A DNA stretch of 49,178 nucleotides, taken from Alphaproteobacteria bacterium (GTDB lineage: Bacteria; Pseudomonadota; Alphaproteobacteria; Rickettsiales; JABCZZ01). The position numbers and the translations under genes are program-made. Under the pieces are notes generated by a model. The model did not search any database, had not been told where the DNA came from, and worked only from the letters and a program-made list of their open reading frames with translations. This document shows, piece by piece, positions 5,833-18,962 of the stretch; the stretch's first letter is position 1, and every line of letters begins with the position of its first letter. The DNA lies in NCBI GenBank assembly GCA_013288335.1, contig JABDCC010000010.1, forward strand, positions 1,723 to 50,900. Reading direction: 5' to 3'.

Positions 5833-5928
5833 CAAAATTACTGAAGAGCCGACTATTAAGCTTTTTATTGCATTTTACTGTCAAATAACTAAAAGAAGCC
5901 AATTACTATAATTTTGGGGTGCCAGCAC

Positions 5929-6894
5929 ATGTCCGCTATTTCAAACTTTATTGACAAAAATTACCGTCATTTTAACGCGGCGACGCTCCGCGAAGCTGCC
6001 GTTGCTTACCGCAAGCATTTAGCCGATGGCGGGATAATGTTTATGACGCTTGCCGGTGCCATGAGCACGGCGGAGCTTGGTATATCGCTGGCGGAAATGA
6101 TACGCAAAGGCAAAGTGGCTGCGATTTCTTGCACGGGTGCTAACCTCGAGGAAGATTTATTCAATGCGGTGGCGCATAATTTCTATCACCGCATTCCCAA
6201 TTACCGCGATTTGACTCCGCAGGATGAAAAAAATCTCTGCGACAATAACATGAACCGCGTGACCGATACTTGTATCCCTGAAGAAGAAGCGATGCGCCTG
6301 GTGGGCGGATTTGTGATTGCTGAATGGGAAAAGGCACAGGCGGCAAAAGAGTCATATTTCCCGCATGAATATCTTTATAAAGTAATTTTAAATCCTGAGT
6401 TCCAGAAACTCTTCCAGATTCCCAAAGAACATAGCTGGATGCTCGCTGCGGCGGAAAAAAACATCCCGATTTACGTTCCCGGCTGGGAAGATTCAACGCT
6501 TGGTAACTTCTTTGTCGCGCACCGCCTTAAAACCGGCCTCGAATTCAGCGTAATGAAATCGGGCCTTGCGTACATGGAGCATCTTTCTTTCTGGTACAGC
6601 AAGCAGACCGAAAAGCGCAAAGTAGGCTTCTTCCAGATTGGCGGTGGTATTGCCGGTGACTTCCCGATTTGTGTGGTGCCGATGCTCAATAAAGATTTGG
6701 AACGCGGCGTTCCTGCCTGGGGCTATTTCTGCCAGATTACTGATGCGCAGGAAAGCTACGGCGGTTATTCGGGTGCATTGCCCAACGAAAAGATTACCTG
6801 GTGGAAATTGGAAATCGATACGCCAAAATACGTAATCCACAGTGATGCAACCATCATCGCGCCGCTCATTTTTGCGTATGTGTTGGAGCAGTAA
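5929..6894 (+). CDS. Deoxyhypusine synthase family protein (probable homospermidine synthase)
   Basis: 321 residues from the ATG at 5929; a TTG at 5914 in the same frame is less likely because GGGGTG precedes the ATG. The Rossmann-like DHS fold is recognisable: GGIMFMTLAGAMSTAELGIS, then ISCTGANLEEDLFNAVAH, FFQIGGGIAGDFPICVVPML and SGALPNEKITWWKLEI. Lys293 in WWK aligns with the lysine that forms the enzyme intermediate in eukaryotic DHS (WGK), so the enzyme should be active. DHS moves the aminobutyl group of spermidine onto eIF5A. Bacteria lack eIF5A, and some bacterial homologues make homospermidine instead. The reaction here is inferred. The stop abuts the stop of the convergent gene with no gap. 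Confidence 0.85.
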   Translation: MSAISNFIDKNYRHFNAATLREAAVAYRKHLADGGIMFMTLAGAMSTAELGISLAEMIRKGKVAAISCTGANLEEDLFNAVAHNFYHRIPNYRDLTPQDEKNLCDNNMNRVTDTCIPEEEAMRLVGGFVIAEWEKAQAAKESYFPHEYLYKVILNPEFQKLFQIPKEHSWMLAAAEKNIPIYVPGWEDSTLGNFFVAHRLKTGLEFSVMKSGLAYMEHLSFWYSKQTEKRKVGFFQIGGGIAGDFPICVVPMLNKDLERGVPAWGYFCQITDAQESYGGYSGALPNEKITWWKLEIDTPKYVIHSDATIIAPLIFAYVLEQ

Positions 6895-7326
6895 CTAGGC
6901 GGCTAACAGCGTTGGAAAATATTCCTGCGTGATAGATTGCTTCAAGTCTTCGCATAACTCGCTGTCGCAGACATATTCCGGCGCTTCGGGGCGCGGTGAA
7001 GTGTTAAAGAATGTCTGATTATCAGCAAATACCGCATCGCTTAATGCCAGATAAAGTCTGCTGTTGAATTTTACATCTGCGCAAGCTTCGTCGATTTCTT
7101 CTTTGTTGAAGTTCGCAATGATATGAGTTTTTTGCTCATATAAGGATTTGCGCATTTGCTCTACAGCTTCCACAATCATCTCGCCATTATCTGTATCGCC
7201 GGCTTTGATTTTTTCTAAGCCTACATGATGCAGCACCATGCAGGTGATTTGCAGCTCCAGATATTTTTCCATAATGGAACCAATATTTTGCTGATAAACC
7301 GATTTTTCTTTTTGCGCTTGGGTCAT
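6895..7326 (-). CDS. Hypothetical protein, 143 aa
   Basis: Not recognised. A helical, acidic protein (MTQAQKEKSVYQQNIGSIMEKYLELQ...) without signal or membrane segments, with two cysteines near the end (YVCDSELCEDL). It is the second gene of an operon: the stop of the upstream 501-residue protein is 10 bases before its start, and a good AAGGAAAT ribosome site overlaps that stop. Expression therefore probably depends on the CtrA-boxed promoter of the upstream gene, and the two products may act together. Confidence 0.7.
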   Translation of the reverse strand: MTQAQKEKSVYQQNIGSIMEKYLELQITCMVLHHVGLEKIKAGDTDNGEMIVEAVEQMRKSLYEQKTHIIANFNKEEIDEACADVKFNSRLYLALSDAVFADNQTFFNTSPRPEAPEYVCDSELCEDLKQSITQEYFPTLLAA

Positions 7327-7336
7327 AAAAATTTCC

Positions 7337-8842
7337 TTATCCTACCTGATTCTGGTTGGGGCCTTTGGGCACAGCAGTAGTTATCTGCTTGGCTACATCG
7401 CTTATAGACTGACCACCGGTAATGGTGTCCTTGCCATGCTTCTGCAGGCCTTTTAGCGCAAGCTCAATGTCACCCTGAAGATAATCGAGTTTCCTGTTGT
7501 TTTTATTAACGAGTTTATCGATTTCTTTCTCGTCTTTTTTGAGATGATTAATCTCTTTATCATATTCTTTTGCAACTTTTTCCTGCTTTTTCTCGGTTTT
7601 AGCATTTATGCTTGCCAAATCCTGCTCGGCTTTATTGGCTTTGTCTGCCTTTTGCATCATCTCGATTCTTGCTTGCTCTGTTTTATTCTGAGCATCCACT
7701 ACTTCTTGCACCTTAGCAATGTTGGCTTCGATAGCGGCTAATGATTCAGGGGGTACTCCACCTCCAACTTTTGCCATGCCTTCCAGCATATGTTTGGTGG
7801 ATTGTAAGTTAGCGAGTTTTTCGCCCATGCTGGTGCCGTCATCCTTAAATAATGGCACGTCATTTCCATCAACGTCTTTGGTTTTGAGTGCGTAAAGCGC
7901 AGCAATTTTCGTATTTGCGTCCGTAGAAACGGTTTTGAAATTAGCCTCAGCTTTAGTAGCTTCGCTGCGTTGTAAAGTTGCAATTTCCTGTGCAATGCTT
8001 GCGGTTTTACCAATACCAGCTTTAGCCAGATCGCGATTGGTTTCCGCTGTTTTAATTCTGTCAGTTATATTCTGCTTATCTGCAGCGGCCTGAGCGTTCT
8101 GAGCTAAAAGTTCTCCTGCCAGTGCTTTGTCTTCTTGGAATCTGTTTTCCAGAGAACTTGCGCGGCCATACTGAAGAGTGGCAACGAGGCTGGTAAATTT
8201 GTCCTCAAGCGTTTGTATGATTCTATGATACAAATCATCGGCTTTATATTTAAAGCGGTCAACGGCATTACCGAGCATTTCTTCTCTTTGCGCAGCCTTA
8301 AGTTTGGCCTGAAGCATTGCTAATTTGTCTTCCGGACTCATGTCATCTGGAATGGATGCTTCCTGAGCTTTTTCTGTAGTTTTTTCTTTGCCCTTATTCT
8401 GTGTTTTTTCATGATGCTCCATGATACCGTTTGCTTCAGTACCTGTTAAGCCTGCAATAGCAAACCACTCTTTGCCATTAGCAGCGTCCCTTACTTTTAT
8501 CACTTCCAGTTTATGTTCTGGTGGAAAATAAGATTGTAATGCTGCCATTTGTTTTTCAACATCTTCGACAGTACTGCCTGCGGGGGCTATGGCGATGTCT
8601 TTACCTTTTGGGAGTCTCTCCAGATATTCATTATCCAGTACTATAATATCGGCAGGTTTTGTATTGGTGATTACATTAGCCAATGCTTTATCAGCGTATT
8701 TGTCTTCCGGAAATTCGGTAGGCAGTATAATTGGTGCATCTGAAAACAAAGCTACAGAAGGTTTTTCTTCTTCCTCAACTGCAACTGAACTGAAAAACAA
8801 ATCAGAAGGTCCAACCAGAGGTTCTTTTTCTTCACCAGCCAT
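7337..8842 (-). CDS. Hypothetical coiled-coil protein, 501 aa
   Basis: Not recognised. The N-terminal 30 residues are acidic (MAGEEKEPLVGPSDLFF, then EEEEKPS). Residues of about 35-145 may form a small globular domain (PADIIVLDNEYLERLPKGK ... EWFAIAGLTG). From about 165 to 470 the protein is rich in Ala, Lys, Glu and Gln, with long heptad-like helices (EKLANLQ..., KANKAEQDLASINAKTEKKQEK) that predict coiled coil. The C-terminus is flexible (VPKGPNQNQVG). There is no signal peptide or membrane segment. A strong AGGGAGAA ribosome site precedes the ATG. Structural, cell-organising or effector roles are all possible; nothing decides between them. Confidence 0.75.
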   Translation of the reverse strand: MAGEEKEPLVGPSDLFFSSVAVEEEEKPSVALFSDAPIILPTEFPEDKYADKALANVITNTKPADIIVLDNEYLERLPKGKDIAIAPAGSTVEDVEKQMAALQSYFPPEHKLEVIKVRDAANGKEWFAIAGLTGTEANGIMEHHEKTQNKGKEKTTEKAQEASIPDDMSPEDKLAMLQAKLKAAQREEMLGNAVDRFKYKADDLYHRIIQTLEDKFTSLVATLQYGRASSLENRFQEDKALAGELLAQNAQAAADKQNITDRIKTAETNRDLAKAGIGKTASIAQEIATLQRSEATKAEANFKTVSTDANTKIAALYALKTKDVDGNDVPLFKDDGTSMGEKLANLQSTKHMLEGMAKVGGGVPPESLAAIEANIAKVQEVVDAQNKTEQARIEMMQKADKANKAEQDLASINAKTEKKQEKVAKEYDKEINHLKKDEKEIDKLVNKNNRKLDYLQGDIELALKGLQKHGKDTITGGQSISDVAKQITTAVPKGPNQNQVG

Positions 8843-8887: not shown

Positions 8888-8933
8888 AATATATCGTGAT
8901 ATAGTTAAAGAAGTGTTAAATTATTGTGAATAT
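8888..8933 (-). promoter_or_regulatory. CtrA-like promoter of the 8842 operon
   Basis: Read on the minus strand, TTCACAATAATTTAACACT leads into TTAA-CACTTCT-TTAAC (8904-8919), a perfect CtrA consensus. A -10-like TATATT lies at 8893-8888, 11 bases after the second TTAA. The part from TCACAA to TTAACACT is nearly identical to the sequences upstream of the genes starting at 16132 and 18864. Confidence 0.6.
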
Positions 8934-10915: not shown

Positions 10916-13900
10916 TTATATATCGCGCGCGATATTAGTCGTAATTTTAGTGGCTGCATTCATGAAATTTGCACTGGTATCCATTGCAATATCTCCCATA
11001 TGTTCAAACATAGCATTATTAAAGAGATTACGAATGGTAACAGTGCTAAATTTTTGCCGTGTTTTACGCGCCGTTTGCTTGTCTACAATAGTACGATTTC
11101 CATAGGCATCTTTTAGAAAATTTTGTATAGAAGCGTTCATTCTTGCTACTTTTTCCTTAATGTTATCCACATCATGAAGACTGCATTCAAAGGTTTTAGA
11201 AATAGGACGACCACTCACATCATTAAAAATACATAAATCATTCTCGGCTTTGCTTCCACGCTGCATTTGGATGGTAACGGATACGCGATTATTCTCTTTA
11301 AGTGTTTCCACTAATGCGATATGAAAATTTTGTTTAGGGTTAGGCATATCATCTAAAAAATCGGCTAAATTCTGAGGATCAGGATTGCGTGGAATAATCT
11401 CTCCGCCAATTTCTTGTAGCTTGAGCTCGCTATTGTTAAATCCATCCCATTTCCATTCCATATTTTTAAAATAATGGCTAAAATATTTAAAATCTTCCAT
11501 TAATGCTTTTATTGCTTCACCGCCGCGCGCTTGGGCGGCAGTTTCATCAGCCGTATGCAAATTAAGACTCGCCTGATAAAACATAGGTTCCGAAGGATGC
11601 AAAGGATCTAATCCTGTCACGCCTAAACGTAGCATTAATCGCCAAGTGGGATTTGCAGTTTTTCCACCTTCTTCTAGACGCAAAGATGCCGTTCTTAAAA
11701 AGGTGGATTGGTGAGCTTTTGCTGGAAATTCAAATAATATATCTTCATTCGAGTTCTGCTTCTTTAAATCATCGACATAATGCAATGGCATAGACTCAGT
11801 TGTGCGCCAGCCTTGGCTAAAGAGGGGGAGCTTTCCATCAGATGTTTGTGTATTTTCAATCACCGCACGTTTTAAATGTTGTGCAACTTCGCCTAAGGTT
11901 TCCCAATTATCCAGGATGAATAGATCATCCACATATTCATGCAAGAATGTTAAACGAGTTTGTGCTTCTTTTTCTGCCAGGTCACGTAATTCACGATAGG
12001 ATTCATCTGATAATCTGGCTGTTTTTTTGATTTCATACCGAAGTCCTAAAGGAATCACAATGCGCTGTGCTTCTTCATTATCGGTTTTGGAAAACACAAA
12101 ATTTGCTGCATAACAGCCGCCATACTCAATAAGTTCAACGGCTTCGGCAGGGCGATTTGGCATGATAGTATCTACACCATTATCCGGTCTTTCAGGCTCA
12201 TCAAGCCGGTGAAGACGCAAAGGAATAAAAGAAGGGTGGCTGAGTATATGGCTTTGAATGGCTTTTTTAAGTGAAATCGCATCATCCAAACTAGTCGTGC
12301 TGGTGCTAACCATACATTCAATGGTTTTGCCATCGGCATTACGAAACGTTAAACGAATGGGAAAGTTGGTTCCGGTGTTATCGCTTAAAACTAAGGAACA
12401 TTTAAATTGATTATGGGGCGGTTCATTATCTAATGCTTCATTTAAGAATGGTACTACCGCTTGTAATAACCGCACTTCAGCAGCGTGATTAGTAATCAGT
12501 TTTGGTTTATAAGCCCAATTTGTAATATCAATAGGGGTAGGAGTCGTAATAATGGGTTCTACTGGTTTTTTAACAGCAGCAGGAGGTTTGATGGTTTGGG
12601 GCTTCTCAGAGTCAGATTTAGGAGTAATACGGTTAATAACAGGTTCTAGAGATGGCTCTGCAGGGAATTGTTCTGTAGTGGTAGCTATTTCACCCGTATT
12701 TTTTAGCTTAGCTTCTGCTTCCATTTGAAGAAGTGCCGCCATATCGGCTTTATATTCTGCTATTTTTGCCATTAATGTGTCGTGTTTGATCCGCGAGCCG
12801 GATAATTCAAACTCATATTCACTTGCAAGTTTTGAGCACACATCAAAGAGATGAGGATATTTTTCACTGTCTTCCACTATTTGCGACAAACTTGATTTGC
12901 GATGGCTAAAATTAAAGGCTTCCACAATAGCTATAAGCCCCTTATTATCGTAATAAGAGCGTGTGACTTCATCTAGATTTTGATAATTTACAAATTCTTG
13001 ACCTTCTTTGAAGAACTCGGCCACATCAGATTGATTGCTTAAACCAAACTGTTCAAGGTTTCTTGCATTTTTAATCAATATTAAGAGTGTCACTTCTCCT
13101 AATAAATAACTTTCCATTCGAGCACGCTTTAGTTCATTGTCGCCACATAACTCATTGACAAATGTTTCAGTCAAAATAAGCCCAGAACCCAGAGTTAGAA
13201 AACAAGGCGTATTGTTATATGCATGTGGGTTTGTTTTTAAGATGCTAATAGGAATATTTTCACGTGCTAAAAATCCAGATGCCTCACGAAAATCTTCTAT
13301 TGTTAGCAAATTTTGTTGTGCCTGGGTAAAGCCATCGTCATCAAGCACCGAAGACTGCCATAGCCCCAATGCTTTTTGGATTTTATCGGCAGGTCTTATT
13401 TTATTATGTTTAAGATTATGTTCGGTATGTTTGACAAAATTTTCAAAAAATAAATGGGATACGGGCTTACCATAGCGATATTCATTCAGGGTATCTGAGC
13501 CCAGCAAACCTTTATGTGTTCTGCTAATGGCAAATGCTGCTTCAAATTGACGTGTATTTTTTGAAAGTGTGCTTACCGTAACCGCACGATATGATTTGTC
13601 ATTGTTTAACCGCTGAATCTGTTTTTCTAAAGAAATGATGTCACTATAAGGTGCATAGCCTGCTGCCAAGCGCAAGGGTACGGTGGTTTCATTAGGTTTT
13701 GTACGATAAGTTTTATCAGCATTGAGATACCATTCGGGTTTATAATCTGCTCTTGCCACCATTTCGTCACCGCGCAAGAACGTAGCCGCAGTAAGATGGC
13801 TTACATCAGGCATTGAGAAAATAACGGGTGGTTCTGGAATAGTTGGTTCTGTATTTGTAATAATGACTTCAGAAGTCTTGTTAGGCAGTGGCGTTATTAC

Positions 13901-16132
13901 AGTAGTTGCAGCCACAGGTGGTTCAGTAATAATCGTCCCTACGGCTGGCTCCAGGCTTTGTTTATATGCATCAAGATTTTTGTGTAAATCAGGAAGAAGA
14001 TTTTTATCTAACGTACCAAGTACTTGCCAGCAAAAATGAGTCAGTCTTGGATATTGCTGATTTAATTCATAAAGTTTTGCAATTTCTTCTACTTGGTGAG
14101 TGAGCAGAAAGTCAGCAATCATACCTGAAACACCATAAATTTCGTGCATTTCTTTCGTGCTTTTTGACCAACTCTCTTTCTCATTCCATAGTTGAAATTC
14201 ATTTTGCAGAGCAATAGCATCTTCAGCAGTTTCTAAGCCAAATTTCTTAAGTGTTCTTGTGCCTTTTATTACTTCTGTATTGCTGATAAGTACTAATATT
14301 GCTAGCTCTCCAACTAATTGAGCTATCGCAAAATCTTTTTTAGCAATATCTTCACCGCAAAAATCATTTACAAAGTTTTCCGTTAAAACCAAGCCTTGTC
14401 TTGTAGTAAGAAAACATGGAATCTCGGATTTACCCGTTTGTAAAATACTGATGGGTAAAATACTAATAGGGATATTTTCGCGTACTAATAAAGGGATATG
14501 TATAGCGAAATTCTTGTTTGCCAGTAATTTGGCTTTAGCATTTGTATATGCCTCATCGTCAAGCAATCGATTTTGAATTTGTGCTTCAAGCGCTTGCTTA
14601 TCTGCTATTTTAGGCCTTGCTATGCCTTTTTTAAGTGACTCATTATTGCTTTTAATCAAGCTATCCTGTAAAGATTTAGGAACATGTTCGCCAAATCGTA
14701 GCATATTTAATTTTTCGGAACCGAGCAGGCCATCATAATTAACGGCGATCTCATTTGCTATATGGGACTGACGCGCTGCTTTGGTAATTCTATTGATAAC
14801 CGCTTCGCGCGCACTTGGGTCTTTTGCTAATTTTGCAATTCTATTATCTAATATATCGGTTTTTTTAGTTTCATCTTTAGCGGATGCCACTAACTGCTGA
14901 TAGGAAACATATAGGGGGGACAAACGCATAGGCACATTGCTATTTTCCAAGTAATAGCGCAAAGTATAATCTTTAGAGATGCTTATCTCGTCGCCACGCA
15001 AAAATTCTGCCACAGGTTGGTCAGGTGCCCCAGCTTTTTCCGATGTTATTTCAGGAAGCTTCGCAGGATGTAAAGTTGCCTTATGTTGTTTTATTTTTTC
15101 TAAAATCTCGGTAGTCTTTTTGCGTTTTCCGGTGCGGGCAAATTCCAGTTCGCCTTCCATCTTCCAATAAAAATCAGTAAATTTAGGATGATTTTCGGCA
15201 AGTTCGTTGAGTGCAGGAATGTCTAAATTTTTTTGATATATAGTTGCTGAAGAAATGACAGCACTAATGCCATAATTAGTAAAGAAATTTTGTATATCAT
15301 TTTTTCCATCACTAAAATGAAGCATAGCATCTGCTTCAGCAAACAATGCTTTGCTGTCTTCGGAAGTGATTAAACCAAACTTAGCTAAATTAAGTGCGTT
15401 TTTTATCAAAATTGCTACCACCATTTCTGATTTCAACGTAGCTTCAGCATAAAAACGCGTATCTTCTTTTGTACTGATTAAATCATCAACAAAAGCTTCT
15501 TCAAGCATAAGTCCATGTTCAAAACTAAGTACGCAGGAAGCTTTCCAATGGTTATTTCTTTCAAGAATGCTGACAGGGATATTTTCTTGTATAAGCAGGG
15601 ATGAAAACTGATTAAAAGCAGGTGATGCGAGTAGCTTTTCTTTTTTTTCTGCAAATCTTCTATCATTCATGATCATGACAGAGTTTGTTATTTTTAAAAA
15701 CTCCTCGCCACTGTCTATATCTGGTTTTTTTATGCCATGACGCAATTCTTTATCGGTACGGTTTTTATAATCTTCAAAAAACCGTTTAGTAGTGGATTTG
15801 CCAAAACGAAATTCATTGAGTTCAATAGAGCCAAGCAAACCTTCGTGATTTGCAGCAATCTCATAACCATTGGTAAGCTGTCGTGCTGCAGCTGAAATTT
15901 TATTAATTGCTGCTGCGCGTATTTTGCCATTTTCCGTTAATTGTGCTATTTCTTTATTTAAATTAGCGCGGTATTTAAAGGAAATATATAAGGGTGATAA
16001 GCGTAAAGGAATGCTCAACTGATGTTTAAGGGTTAAATACCAACGCATAGTATGATTATCATCTGCCGTAAGCTCATCGCCACGCAGAATTTCTACGGCA
16101 GGTTGGCTTTTTTGATTTGCATTATTGGCCAT
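10916..16132 (-). CDS. Giant hypothetical protein with three tandem ~360-residue repeats, 1738 aa
   Basis: Not a family I recognise. Three degenerate repeats begin at the signature [IF]LRGDE (Gly at 18, 380 and 788). Each contains, in order, a PLRL segment, a GLLGS.xLN..R[FY]G motif, and [QR]ENIP[VI]SIL followed by C[VF]L...GL[MVI]L.E.FV[ND][DE][LF]. Pro/Thr-rich linkers precede repeat 3 and follow it (about 1150-1210). The C-terminal 530 residues are different and may hold smaller alternating strand-helix units (IECMVSTSTTSLDDAISLKK; FECSLHDVDNIKEKVARMN). Signal and membrane segments are absent. There is no clear ribosome site before the ATG at 16132. The gene lies in the inserted element and has a CtrA-like box upstream. 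Enzyme, scaffold or effector roles are all open. Confidence 0.8.
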   Translation of the reverse strand: MANNANQKSQPAVEILRGDELTADDNHTMRWYLTLKHQLSIPLRLSPLYISFKYRANLNKEIAQLTENGKIRAAAINKISAAARQLTNGYEIAANHEGLLGSIELNEFRFGKSTTKRFFEDYKNRTDKELRHGIKKPDIDSGEEFLKITNSVMIMNDRRFAEKKEKLLASPAFNQFSSLLIQENIPVSILERNNHWKASCVLSFEHGLMLEEAFVDDLISTKEDTRFYAEATLKSEMVVAILIKNALNLAKFGLITSEDSKALFAEADAMLHFSDGKNDIQNFFTNYGISAVISSATIYQKNLDIPALNELAENHPKFTDFYWKMEGELEFARTGKRKKTTEILEKIKQHKATLHPAKLPEITSEKAGAPDQPVAEFLRGDEISISKDYTLRYYLENSNVPMRLSPLYVSYQQLVASAKDETKKTDILDNRIAKLAKDPSAREAVINRITKAARQSHIANEIAVNYDGLLGSEKLNMLRFGEHVPKSLQDSLIKSNNESLKKGIARPKIADKQALEAQIQNRLLDDEAYTNAKAKLLANKNFAIHIPLLVRENIPISILPISILQTGKSEIPCFLTTRQGLVLTENFVNDFCGEDIAKKDFAIAQLVGELAILVLISNTEVIKGTRTLKKFGLETAEDAIALQNEFQLWNEKESWSKSTKEMHEIYGVSGMIADFLLTHQVEEIAKLYELNQQYPRLTHFCWQVLGTLDKNLLPDLHKNLDAYKQSLEPAVGTIITEPPVAATTVITPLPNKTSEVIITNTEPTIPEPPVIFSMPDVSHLTAATFLRGDEMVARADYKPEWYLNADKTYRTKPNETTVPLRLAAGYAPYSDIISLEKQIQRLNNDKSYRAVTVSTLSKNTRQFEAAFAISRTHKGLLGSDTLNEYRYGKPVSHLFFENFVKHTEHNLKHNKIRPADKIQKALGLWQSSVLDDDGFTQAQQNLLTIEDFREASGFLARENIPISILKTNPHAYNNTPCFLTLGSGLILTETFVNELCGDNELKRARMESYLLGEVTLLILIKNARNLEQFGLSNQSDVAEFFKEGQEFVNYQNLDEVTRSYYDNKGLIAIVEAFNFSHRKSSLSQIVEDSEKYPHLFDVCSKLASEYEFELSGSRIKHDTLMAKIAEYKADMAALLQMEAEAKLKNTGEIATTTEQFPAEPSLEPVINRITPKSDSEKPQTIKPPAAVKKPVEPIITTPTPIDITNWAYKPKLITNHAAEVRLLQAVVPFLNEALDNEPPHNQFKCSLVLSDNTGTNFPIRLTFRNADGKTIECMVSTSTTSLDDAISLKKAIQSHILSHPSFIPLRLHRLDEPERPDNGVDTIMPNRPAEAVELIEYGGCYAANFVFSKTDNEEAQRIVIPLGLRYEIKKTARLSDESYRELRDLAEKEAQTRLTFLHEYVDDLFILDNWETLGEVAQHLKRAVIENTQTSDGKLPLFSQGWRTTESMPLHYVDDLKKQNSNEDILFEFPAKAHQSTFLRTASLRLEEGGKTANPTWRLMLRLGVTGLDPLHPSEPMFYQASLNLHTADETAAQARGGEAIKALMEDFKYFSHYFKNMEWKWDGFNNSELKLQEIGGEIIPRNPDPQNLADFLDDMPNPKQNFHIALVETLKENNRVSVTIQMQRGSKAENDLCIFNDVSGRPISKTFECSLHDVDNIKEKVARMNASIQNFLKDAYGNRTIVDKQTARKTRQKFSTVTIRNLFNNAMFEHMGDIAMDTSANFMNAATKITTNIARDI

Positions 16133-16162: not shown

Positions 16163-16211
16163 CTAATAATACCGAAAATGGATTAAAATAGTGTTAAGAT
16201 TTTGTGACAAT
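16163..16211 (-). promoter_or_regulatory. CtrA-like promoter of the giant repeat protein gene
   Basis: On the minus strand TCACAAAATCTTAACACT leads into TTAA-CACTATT-TTAA (16183-16197). A -10-like TATTAT follows 11 bases after the second TTAA. The first 18 bases are identical to those upstream of the gene starting at 18864. Confidence 0.55.
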
Positions 16212-16533: not shown

Positions 16534-18864
16534 CTATATAGCGCGCACTTCTGTTCCGTCATTTCCTCGTTTGCGGAGCAACTTGTCGTTTTTAACAACA
16601 CTCCATGCTTTCTTACTCTTTGCCTCTTGTATCACCTGAGCAGCCACCTCTTTACCCGAACGAAATGCCCCTGCCATCGATGCAGGAAATTCCGTATCGA
16701 ATGTATCGCCTGCAATATAAATTTTATCTTGGTGCAATGGGCCCGTGCGTTTTCCACCCGGTGCACAGGCGGTATAGACACCAAGAGCATAAGGATTGCT
16801 ATTCCACTCAGTAATAATAGGAGGAGCTGTGATATAATTTTCGTAACCCTCGATTTCTTTCACCTGCTTCAGGTTCTGGTGAAAGAAATCTAAAGCTTCT
16901 AAGGATGACATTTTTTCTATTTCAATGGCTTTGGAGCCACCAATCAGCATAGTTATAGTTGGCTTGCCCCCACTATGCAAATGACAGAAAAGCGGGGGGT
17001 TGGAATCCAGAAGGTCTAAATGCTGATCAACTGGAATTTTTTTATTGATAAAGAATTTATGATCAAGTTCCACTATAATTTTAGTCATTTGTCCTACCAG
17101 AATTTCATCAAATCCATCACGTATTTCCTGGCTTAATGGTGGATCAAATTCAATTCCACCACTTTTAAGTACGCTAATGGGAACGGTGACAATGGCTCGT
17201 TTGCCTTTAAATACTTCCCCGGCTTGTGTTTCCACCTGCACGCCTTTGGAGGTACTGGATATTTTTTTGACGGGAGTATTAAAAAGGGTGTTTTCGTCAA
17301 GTTTTGCATCTCTGCCCATGGCATCAATCAGTGTCTTGATACCACCTTTGAGCTGAAATCCTCCGGGATTAGCTTTATCCGTGAGATATTCAAGCGCGGA
17401 AGGGTGTTGATTTGGATCCAATCCATACCATGTAGAGTATTTTCGGCAAAAATTCTTACGTGCCTCTTCATCTTTTAATAAATCTGCTAGGGGACAATCC
17501 GGTTCAAGTCCATTTATAATTCGCTGAGCTTTTTCGTTGTCGATATTATTGCCTGCGAGTTGACGCAATGTTTTTCCATGCGCAATACCACCTCTATAAG
17601 AAATTACATTGCTCACAGTATCTATGCTGTAAGACAGCCCATGCTTGTCGAGCTGTTTAGTGAGGGGGTTTTCTTCGCTGTTATGACCCCAGTGCGCGCC
17701 AGTATCTATGGCAATCCCGGAGTAAGTAGAGACGGTTTTTGCTCTTCCGCCTGCTTCACTCGTGGCCTCTAATATTCGGTAAGTAATATCGGCTTTGTTC
17801 AGTTTCTCTGCTGCTTTTAAACCTGTTATTCCGGCACCGATGATTAGTACATCCGGATCTTCTCGAGTATGTTTAGGAGGATTATTGATAACGTCTTTAT
17901 ATTTTCTAATAGACTTTGGGGGTTCATAAAATTGCCCTGCTGCCGCACCAAATATCTTTCCAAGAGGAGTATGTCTTTTTGTTTCAGGTAATTGAATAGT
18001 TGCGCCTAATGTTGTTAAGATTCCAGCCTGTTTTGCAAAGGTCGTAAACTTTCCGGGTTTGAAGAGTACAAAATTACGCTCCAGATTATCGTCGAGATCC
18101 TTCTTCATGGCCACTAGGGTAGGATGAGAAAACGTTATATCATCAGGAAAAGAAAGAGCAAAGTAACGCTTCAGATGTTCTTTCACAACGGAAACAGGGA
18201 GGGAATCTTTGGAGGCGCCTTTAACACAAAGATCGAGCACATTAGAAGGCTCATCTCCTTGCTTCATAGGCGGCTGAATATAGCGCATATTAATGGTCTT
18301 AAAGCCGTGTTTTTCATAAAGATTTCGGCGATAAATCTGATCTATGGAAGCTTCGGAATCCTGTTTGTATTCTTCAGGAGTCATCAAAAGGGGAGAATGT
18401 TGTTCTACAAAAGTAAGCAAGGTAGGGTGGTCGGGCGCATCAGCGTTTGTTTCACGTATAAAATTCTTTGCGGCCTCTTCACGCAGTTGGAATAATTTTT
18501 CACGTATACCTTGCCCCTGAAAAGATGGATTTACAAAAATGAAAATGCCTTGCAAGGTTCCATCTATTCCTTTTGCAGAACTTCCGGCAAATATATCAAA
18601 ATTAGTTGCACCGACGAGTTTTCCGTTTGCAGTTTTGAGGCATATCCACATTTCTTTACATGGACCATATTTTTTCTGGAATGCTACATCACTATTGCGT
18701 CCAAGATTACGTGCCAAAGCGGCTAACATTTCCTCATCAGATGCATATTCTCCCGGCAAGGTAAATACTTTTTTGCTATCCTCAAAAATCTGAGGGAGAT
18801 CAGGATGAGTAATTGAATCAATATTAAATTCAATAAAGTCAGTGTGTTGAGTATATTGCATCAA
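16534..18864 (-). CDS. GNAT acetyltransferase-FAD amine oxidase fusion, 776 aa
   Basis: Two enzymes in one chain. Residues of about 1-230 form a GNAT-like domain: GKLVGATNFDIFAG, then IFVNPSFQGQGIREKL with the Q-x-x-G-x-G/A-like acetyl-CoA loop, and IYRRNLYEKHGFKTI. From about 338 the flavin amine oxidase domain starts with VLIIGAGITGLKAAEKL (Gly343 onward), ILEATSEAGGRAKT and AIDTGAHWG, and ends with YIAGDTFDTEFPASMAGAFRSG, the usual FAD-contacting C-terminus. The substrate is not determined. The combination recalls polyamine catabolism (acetylation followed by oxidation), which is inference. A GAAGGT ribosome site lies before the ATG. The gene is in the inserted element, with a CtrA-like motif upstream. 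Confidence 0.85.
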   Translation of the reverse strand: MMQYTQHTDFIEFNIDSITHPDLPQIFEDSKKVFTLPGEYASDEEMLAALARNLGRNSDVAFQKKYGPCKEMWICLKTANGKLVGATNFDIFAGSSAKGIDGTLQGIFIFVNPSFQGQGIREKLFQLREEAAKNFIRETNADAPDHPTLLTFVEQHSPLLMTPEEYKQDSEASIDQIYRRNLYEKHGFKTINMRYIQPPMKQGDEPSNVLDLCVKGASKDSLPVSVVKEHLKRYFALSFPDDITFSHPTLVAMKKDLDDNLERNFVLFKPGKFTTFAKQAGILTTLGATIQLPETKRHTPLGKIFGAAAGQFYEPPKSIRKYKDVINNPPKHTREDPDVLIIGAGITGLKAAEKLNKADITYRILEATSEAGGRAKTVSTYSGIAIDTGAHWGHNSEENPLTKQLDKHGLSYSIDTVSNVISYRGGIAHGKTLRQLAGNNIDNEKAQRIINGLEPDCPLADLLKDEEARKNFCRKYSTWYGLDPNQHPSALEYLTDKANPGGFQLKGGIKTLIDAMGRDAKLDENTLFNTPVKKISSTSKGVQVETQAGEVFKGKRAIVTVPISVLKSGGIEFDPPLSQEIRDGFDEILVGQMTKIIVELDHKFFINKKIPVDQHLDLLDSNPPLFCHLHSGGKPTITMLIGGSKAIEIEKMSSLEALDFFHQNLKQVKEIEGYENYITAPPIITEWNSNPYALGVYTACAPGGKRTGPLHQDKIYIAGDTFDTEFPASMAGAFRSGKEVAAQVIQEAKSKKAWSVVKNDKLLRKRGNDGTEVRAI

Positions 18865-18914: not shown

Positions 18915-18962
18915 ATTCTAACCATCAATAGGTTTAAAAAGTGTTAAGATTTTGTGAAATTT
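18915..18962 (-). promoter_or_regulatory. CtrA-like promoter of the GNAT-amine oxidase gene
   Basis: On the minus strand TCACAAAATCTTAACACT leads into TTAACACTTTTTAAACC (TTAA with 6-base spacing, or TTAA-N7-TAAA), then a -10-like TAGAAT. This is the weakest of the set by the strict CtrA rule, but its first 18 bases are identical to the element at 16192-16209. Confidence 0.5.

Follow-up and report, generated by a model that had tools for sequence, protein, structure and literature searches.

Polyamines are back-converted in eukaryotes by two separate proteins acting in turn, the acetyltransferase SSAT and then the amine oxidase PAOX. SSAT shares the GNAT fold with SpeG and PaiA, and PAOX-like enzymes belong with MAO and LSD to the PAO/MAO/LSD group of flavin amine oxidases (PF01593). 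Here we describe a protein, encoded in a 49,178-nucleotide stretch of alphaproteobacterial DNA (the window), that likewise pairs a predicted acetyltransferase with a predicted amine oxidase, but does so in one chain. Its C-terminal half has the full profile, the FAD motifs and the N5-lysine in common with the PAO/MAO/LSD group, from which the fusion differs by its added N-terminal GNAT half and by standing at 25–40% identity to its bacterial relatives. Its N-terminal half has the GNAT fold in common with SSAT, SpeG and PaiA, yet shows no sequence match to them, is much longer and carries a helical extension. The nearest counterpart of that half is an uncharacterized family of GNAT proteins of about 330 residues, which resemble it along their full length and include two members from the same order as well as distant members on sphingomonad plasmids; these proteins stand alone, whereas the fusion carries an added oxidase. 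The initial annotation of the window had read the gene as an enzyme for the acetylation and oxidation of polyamines in a single chain. We consider it probable that the protein is a genuine two-domain enzyme, in which a protein of a GNAT-type family is followed, head to tail, by an oxidase of the PAO/MAO/LSD type, and that its gene belongs to a specialized regulon. The features on which this reading is based are collected in Table 1.

Table 1. Positions of the fusion gene, its predicted domains and sites, and related features (window coordinates unless a locus is named).
Feature	Position	Strand	Basis or remark
GNAT–amine oxidase fusion gene	ORF 16534..18864	minus	776 codons, no internal stop
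Fusion coding sequence, most likely	18861..16534	minus	775 aa plus stop
GNAT-type half, residues ~2–331	17873..18861	minus	Pfam, stand-alone relatives, AF2 model, PDB fold matches
Candidate acyl-CoA P-loop, Q116-G-Q-G119-I-R121	18502..18519	minus	sequence against consensus
Flavin amine oxidase half, residues ~336–751	16613..17859	minus	Pfam, profile searches
Lys595, aligned to ZmPAO1 Lys300 and LSD1 Lys661	17080..17082	minus	alignment
Element TCACAAAATCTTAACACT upstream of fusion gene	18940..18957	minus	-10-like TAGAAT at 18920-18915, read from sequence
Identical element upstream of 1738-aa gene (10916-16132)	16190..16207	minus	-10-like TATTAT at 16171-16166, read from sequence
Third element copy, 3 mismatches, upstream of 501-aa gene (7337-8842)	8912..8929	minus	-10-like TATATT at 8893-8888, read from sequence
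Deoxyhypusine synthase-family gene	ORF 5914-6894, ATG at 5929	plus	PF01916, E 1.6e-43
Element matches across the order	loci L062-L091		six genomes; mostly before genes without known family
Apparent operon: IDO, CN_hydrolase, GNAT relative, AMP-binding enzyme, LuxE, LuxC, SDR	L056 427-8273 (G443, contig C15)
GNAT + CN_hydrolase fusion, 537 aa	L058 4086-5696 (G724, contig C5)		adjoins a relative of this GNAT family

The claim of the initial annotation that a GNAT-like domain and a complete flavin amine oxidase domain reside in one protein is borne out by the single reading frame, by Pfam and by the relatives of each half. The frame opens with TTG, followed by ATG as its second codon; AAGG lies a few bases 5′ of this ATG, so that the 775-residue product is most likely; residues are numbered here with the TTG as residue 1. 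The fusion is genuine at the level of the assembly. It has been seen in a single genome, a draft of 67 contigs that is 66.85% complete, and an error that removed a stop codon is unlikely but still conceivable. That sequencing or assembly error merged two adjacent genes is nevertheless highly improbable: the frame is open through the junction, which lies well inside a 50.9-kb contig, the two halves are similar in G+C (0.40 and 0.43), and no copies among the repeats listed fall at the junction. A separate oxidase gene would moreover need a start, and residues 300–345 hold no in-frame start codon, which rules out a start just before the oxidase domain. We therefore rejected the oxidase as a gene of its own beginning at the junction, the check covering residues 300–345.

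The N-terminal half comprises a core fold at about residues 68–214, followed by a helical extension of about 110 residues that is also present in the stand-alone relatives. Pfam Acetyltransf_7 matches residues 73–189 at E 5e-5, a match that is weak taken alone (24.0 bits; cut-off 27). Two stand-alone relatives from the same order, L005 and L017, are 37% and 36% identical to the fusion over residues 21–305 and 21–273, respectively, and both exceed the Acetyltransf_1 cut-off. The same two genes, as L028 (MAG UBA998) and L029, were the sole GNAT relatives found in a scan of genome contigs with two degenerate peptide patterns, by which relatives may be missed. Similarity to the stand-alone proteins reaches about residue 320, just before the oxidase, and the fusion therefore contains an entire GNAT-type protein, beyond the core domain; it shares with this family the Q/R and G of the P-loop and the motifs F-x-E-Q-x-x-P...M and Y-x-Q-P. 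An AF2 model of the half, built from three sequences (pLDDT 52, pTM 0.52), has the helix and strand order of a GNAT, with the β-β-β-α-β-α-β-β core. Judged by entry titles, the model matches GNAT-type acetyltransferases throughout the PDB chains retrieved at E ≤ 0.001, with probabilities of 0.96–1.00 in most top rows, and SpeG and PaiA are among its fold matches. The complete fusion, modeled from one sequence, reached a pLDDT of 38. A profile of this GNAT family retrieved no chain at E ≤ 1 from the PDB sequences, and neither SSAT nor SpeG families appear among the Pfam and NCBIfam matches of the fusion. Taking the relatives, the low-confidence AF2 fold and the PDB matches together, we regard the predicted assignment of this half to the GNATs as secure.

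GNAT enzymes bind acyl-CoA through a P-loop with the consensus Q/R-x-x-G-x-G/A (PMC4964394). The fusion agrees with this consensus at positions one and four (Q116 and G119), the final position being R121 instead of Gly or Ala. Among 12 aligned members of the family, Q or R occurs at position 116 in 11, as does G at position 119. Position 121, on the other hand, is variable in the relatives (F, M, L, S, A or G); it is Arg in the fusion and Phe in L005 and L017, so that none of these three has Gly or Ala. Tyr183, within NLYEKHGF, occupies the usual position of the general acid, which is not conserved either, with Phe in L005 and L017 and F, W or other residues among the relatives. The loss of acetyl-CoA-binding residues that the initial annotation had named as counting against its reading is not seen, Q116 and G119 being retained even though R121 is off-consensus.

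The departures at R121 and at the general-acid position, together with the occurrence of the two halves apart elsewhere, would fit a protein whose halves do not catalyze successive steps: only the oxidase half would be metabolic, and the GNAT half would be a regulator, a substrate-binding module or a protein acylator. We hold this to be unlikely, as the fusion, like almost every relative, retains the P-loop positions Q116 and G119, and E154, D175 and the P158/M161 region are conserved throughout the family, a pattern that points to a working GNAT site.

The oxidase half matches the entire Amino_oxidase profile of Pfam (PF01593; residues 346–745, profile positions 1–443 of 443, E 9.6e-48, 164 bits; cut-off 19.8). 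The GxGxxG dinucleotide motif consists of G343, G345 and G348 and the GGR motif of G372-G373-R374, and these residues, along with E366, W687, G695, Y697 and G719-D720, are conserved as in most of 17 relatives. Lysines of the ZmPAO1 Lys300 type form a water bridge to N5 of FAD and are also found in MAO and putrescine oxidase (PMC7576179), so that K595 is not specific for polyamine oxidases. The Lys of SGGKPTIT (residues 631–638) was considered as the LSD1-type lysine and rejected, since the alignments place K595 there. H394, Y697 and S729 fall at ZmPAO1 positions 62, 403 and 439, the last of these aligned from sequence alone, and most eukaryotic PAOs of clades II–IV have K, H, Y and T/S at the positions of K595, H394, Y697 and S729 (PMC7576179). 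H394 is common to all bacterial relatives aligned and is therefore not diagnostic of a polyamine oxidase. As in the PAO/MAO/LSD group, an aromatic residue stands at the position of ZmPAO1 Phe403, with Val696 at position 402 and no Cys for covalent flavin attachment. The oxidase half retains the residues that an active flavin amine oxidase would be expected to have. A profile search of the PDB gave LSD2 the highest score, and spermine oxidase, PAOX, Fms1, MAO and putrescine oxidase came next. A tree built from this half places the fusion with L004, from genome G048, and with an oxidase on an Asticcacaulis plasmid (L015; support 100/99).

A search for other GNAT–amine oxidase fusions, which the initial annotation had proposed, returned none from genome samples or plasmids. 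The whole protein found no second fusion among 88 relatives, and no plasmid record covered 80% of it. In partly overlapping samples of the order, class and phylum, no fusion was found with the GNAT half (344, 385 and 398 genomes, respectively) or with the oxidase half (344 genomes of the order and 385 of the class). Phage records gave no match to either half, scans of viral contigs with either half gave no lead, and no described fusion of this kind was found among the papers listed. Both halves have stand-alone relatives in sister lineages, the GNAT in genomes G086 and G333 and the nearest oxidase in G048. In none of these was the other half seen, and this distribution over different genomes speaks against a long-standing partnership between GNAT and oxidase. 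The upstream gene on the Asticcacaulis plasmid, considered as a GNAT adjoining the oxidase, is unrelated. Frames in L032, L036 and L041 that seemed to be fused were likewise rejected: inspection by eye showed nothing GNAT-like in their extra N-terminal residues, which are leader sequence or read-through in other frames. The architecture of the fusion appears to be new, each part being of a known kind.

The fusion neighbors the kdp genes (on the opposite strand), an unmatched 1738-aa gene, DUF4167 and prmC, and no gene of polyamine transport or metabolism linked to it is found among its neighbors in the window. The deoxyhypusine/homospermidine synthase-like gene cited in the initial annotation is present, separated from the fusion by 10 kb and several genes and located on the opposite strand; its product falls far short of the cut-offs set for the named NCBIfam models, retains the active-site lysine region and is possibly a homospermidine synthase-like enzyme. 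Synteny around kdpA in genomes G002 and G003 is not conserved on the side of the fusion. The stand-alone GNAT relatives have among their neighbors sspB and thyX, a PD-(D/E)XK nuclease gene, aconitase and an ABC transporter gene, with no polyamine genes beside them. In the draft genome, ornithine decarboxylase was not found, the two PF02784 matches being LysA and a LysA-like protein, and the sole Spermine_synth match is a 715-aa fused MFS/SpdSyn-type protein. The incompleteness of the genome means that absent genes weigh little.

These data bear on the model in which the GNAT half acetylates a polyamine such as spermidine or homospermidine and the oxidase half cleaves the product, channeled within one chain. 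The model draws on the presence of Fms1, SMOX and PAOX among the nearest solved relatives of the oxidase, on the fit of H394, Y697 and S729 to the pattern common in PAO clades II–IV, on SpeG as a fold match and on the deoxyhypusine synthase-family gene with its active-site lysine. Yet the same oxidase profile ranks LSD2 first and also finds MAOs and putrescine oxidase, and SpeG is one of many unrelated GNATs with similar scores and is therefore uninformative on the substrate. The gene content described above also weighs against the model, both beside the fusion and the stand-alone GNATs and in the genome at large, as does the failure to find the two halves together in other genomes. Of the original proposal, then, the two-domain fusion stands, while its polyamine step is backed by no neighboring or co-occurring gene; we judge the model unlikely, and a different amine substrate, or a different function of the GNAT half, is no less possible.

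Some distant relatives of the GNAT half adjoin genes for carbon-nitrogen hydrolases (nitrilases). One lies in an apparent operon with IDO, LuxE and LuxC, which is possibly a tryptophan-derived biosynthetic cluster. Another adjoins a gene that is itself a GNAT–nitrilase fusion and that, like the fusion studied here, joins a GNAT to a second enzyme of nitrogen chemistry; there, however, a GNAT from another family is paired with a carbon-nitrogen hydrolase. These cases suggest, as a lead only, that members of the wider GNAT family act in diverse kinds of amine or amide chemistry.

A repeat search revealed a 36-nt repeat, with the core TCACAAAATCTTAACACT, that precedes both the fusion gene and the gene following it on the minus strand, which encodes the 1738-aa protein. 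With the third, imperfect copy there are three matches in the window, a number reached in none of 100 shuffles, and each is followed by a -10-like box at an offset of 36 or 37, read from the sequence. A reversed-pattern control gave one match, whereas the pattern TCACAAWAWYTTAACACT itself, allowing up to two mismatches, gave 30 across six genomes of the order, some of them chance matches at this tolerance. Of these occurrences, 23 lie 34–108 nt before a same-strand ORF of at least 130 aa, compared with 10% of random positions (binomial P ~1e-17, a guide only, as background positions came from the same loci under a simple ORF rule). TATAAT-like boxes after the motif peak at offsets of 25, 36–37 and 48. 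Of 20 downstream proteins scanned, three passed a Pfam cut-off (an M48 peptidase, a GH16 protein and a RimK-like ATP-grasp protein), one had a weak HTH match only and 16 had nothing. Two pairs of downstream proteins are homologous between genomes of one genus, which supports conserved regulation. The element and its -10-like box, common to the fusion, two unmatched genes of the window and about 20 other genes, would define a candidate regulon, specialized in character, to which the fusion gene probably belongs. The spaced repeat within the element resembles the sites of OmpR-family regulators, whether PhoB, ChvI/BvrR, CtrA or another; the kdp promoter region has no copy of the element, and the KdpE-like regulator of the window is therefore not favored.

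Several of the genes associated with the element encode proteins worth recording in their own right. The 1738-aa protein (10916-16132, minus strand) contains at least three internal repeats (FLRGDE...) and matches nothing in Pfam, PHROGs, PADLOC or plasmids. The unmatched 501-aa gene (7337-8842), with the element upstream, stands in tandem with an unmatched 143-aa gene (6895-7326), both on the minus strand. L099 211-1782 and L106 4385-5803, from the same genus, encode homologous unmatched membrane-like proteins, both behind the element. L097 3549-4001 (G000, contig C1) encodes a secreted-looking protein of 151 residues with curlin-like repeats, recognized by eye; a weaker copy of the element stands 230 nt upstream of it.

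The company that the fusion keeps could also indicate that the protein is delivered outside the cell and targets amines of a different organism, as an effector or a surface-interaction enzyme suited to life in association with a host or prey. The genes that have the element in common are mostly without a Pfam family and their products often lack an N-terminal signal, and the fusion itself has no evident signal peptide and carries a net charge of +5 in its last 30 residues. Such a charged tail is not specific, however, and several members of the regulon are ordinary proteins, namely the M48 peptidase, the GH16 protein and the RimK-like protein, so that we regard an effector as distinctly improbable.

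In the two-domain enzyme that we favor, the GNAT half would acylate an amine with acyl-CoA as the donor, and the oxidase half would carry out FAD-dependent oxidation of a C–N bond in that amine or in one related to it; their union in one chain would link the two reactions or ensure that both activities are expressed together. The gene would be switched on, probably via the OmpR-type tandem element, along with mostly unmatched genes, a co-regulation that makes a lifestyle-specific role likelier than housekeeping polyamine turnover. That both halves act on one substrate in sequence we hold to be less likely than not, and that this substrate is a polyamine to be unlikely. Very unlikely, in our estimation, is the most far-reaching version, in which an enzyme that first acylates and then oxidizes an amine is co-expressed with lifestyle-specific unknown proteins in an uncultured order and possibly acts on host or prey amines.

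If both halves do share one substrate, the fusion would be a natural one-chain acylation–oxidation enzyme and a ready test of channeling between steps that eukaryotes split over separate proteins. The shared element, which links the fusion to unknown genes of a poorly studied alphaproteobacterial order, offers a handle on those genes.
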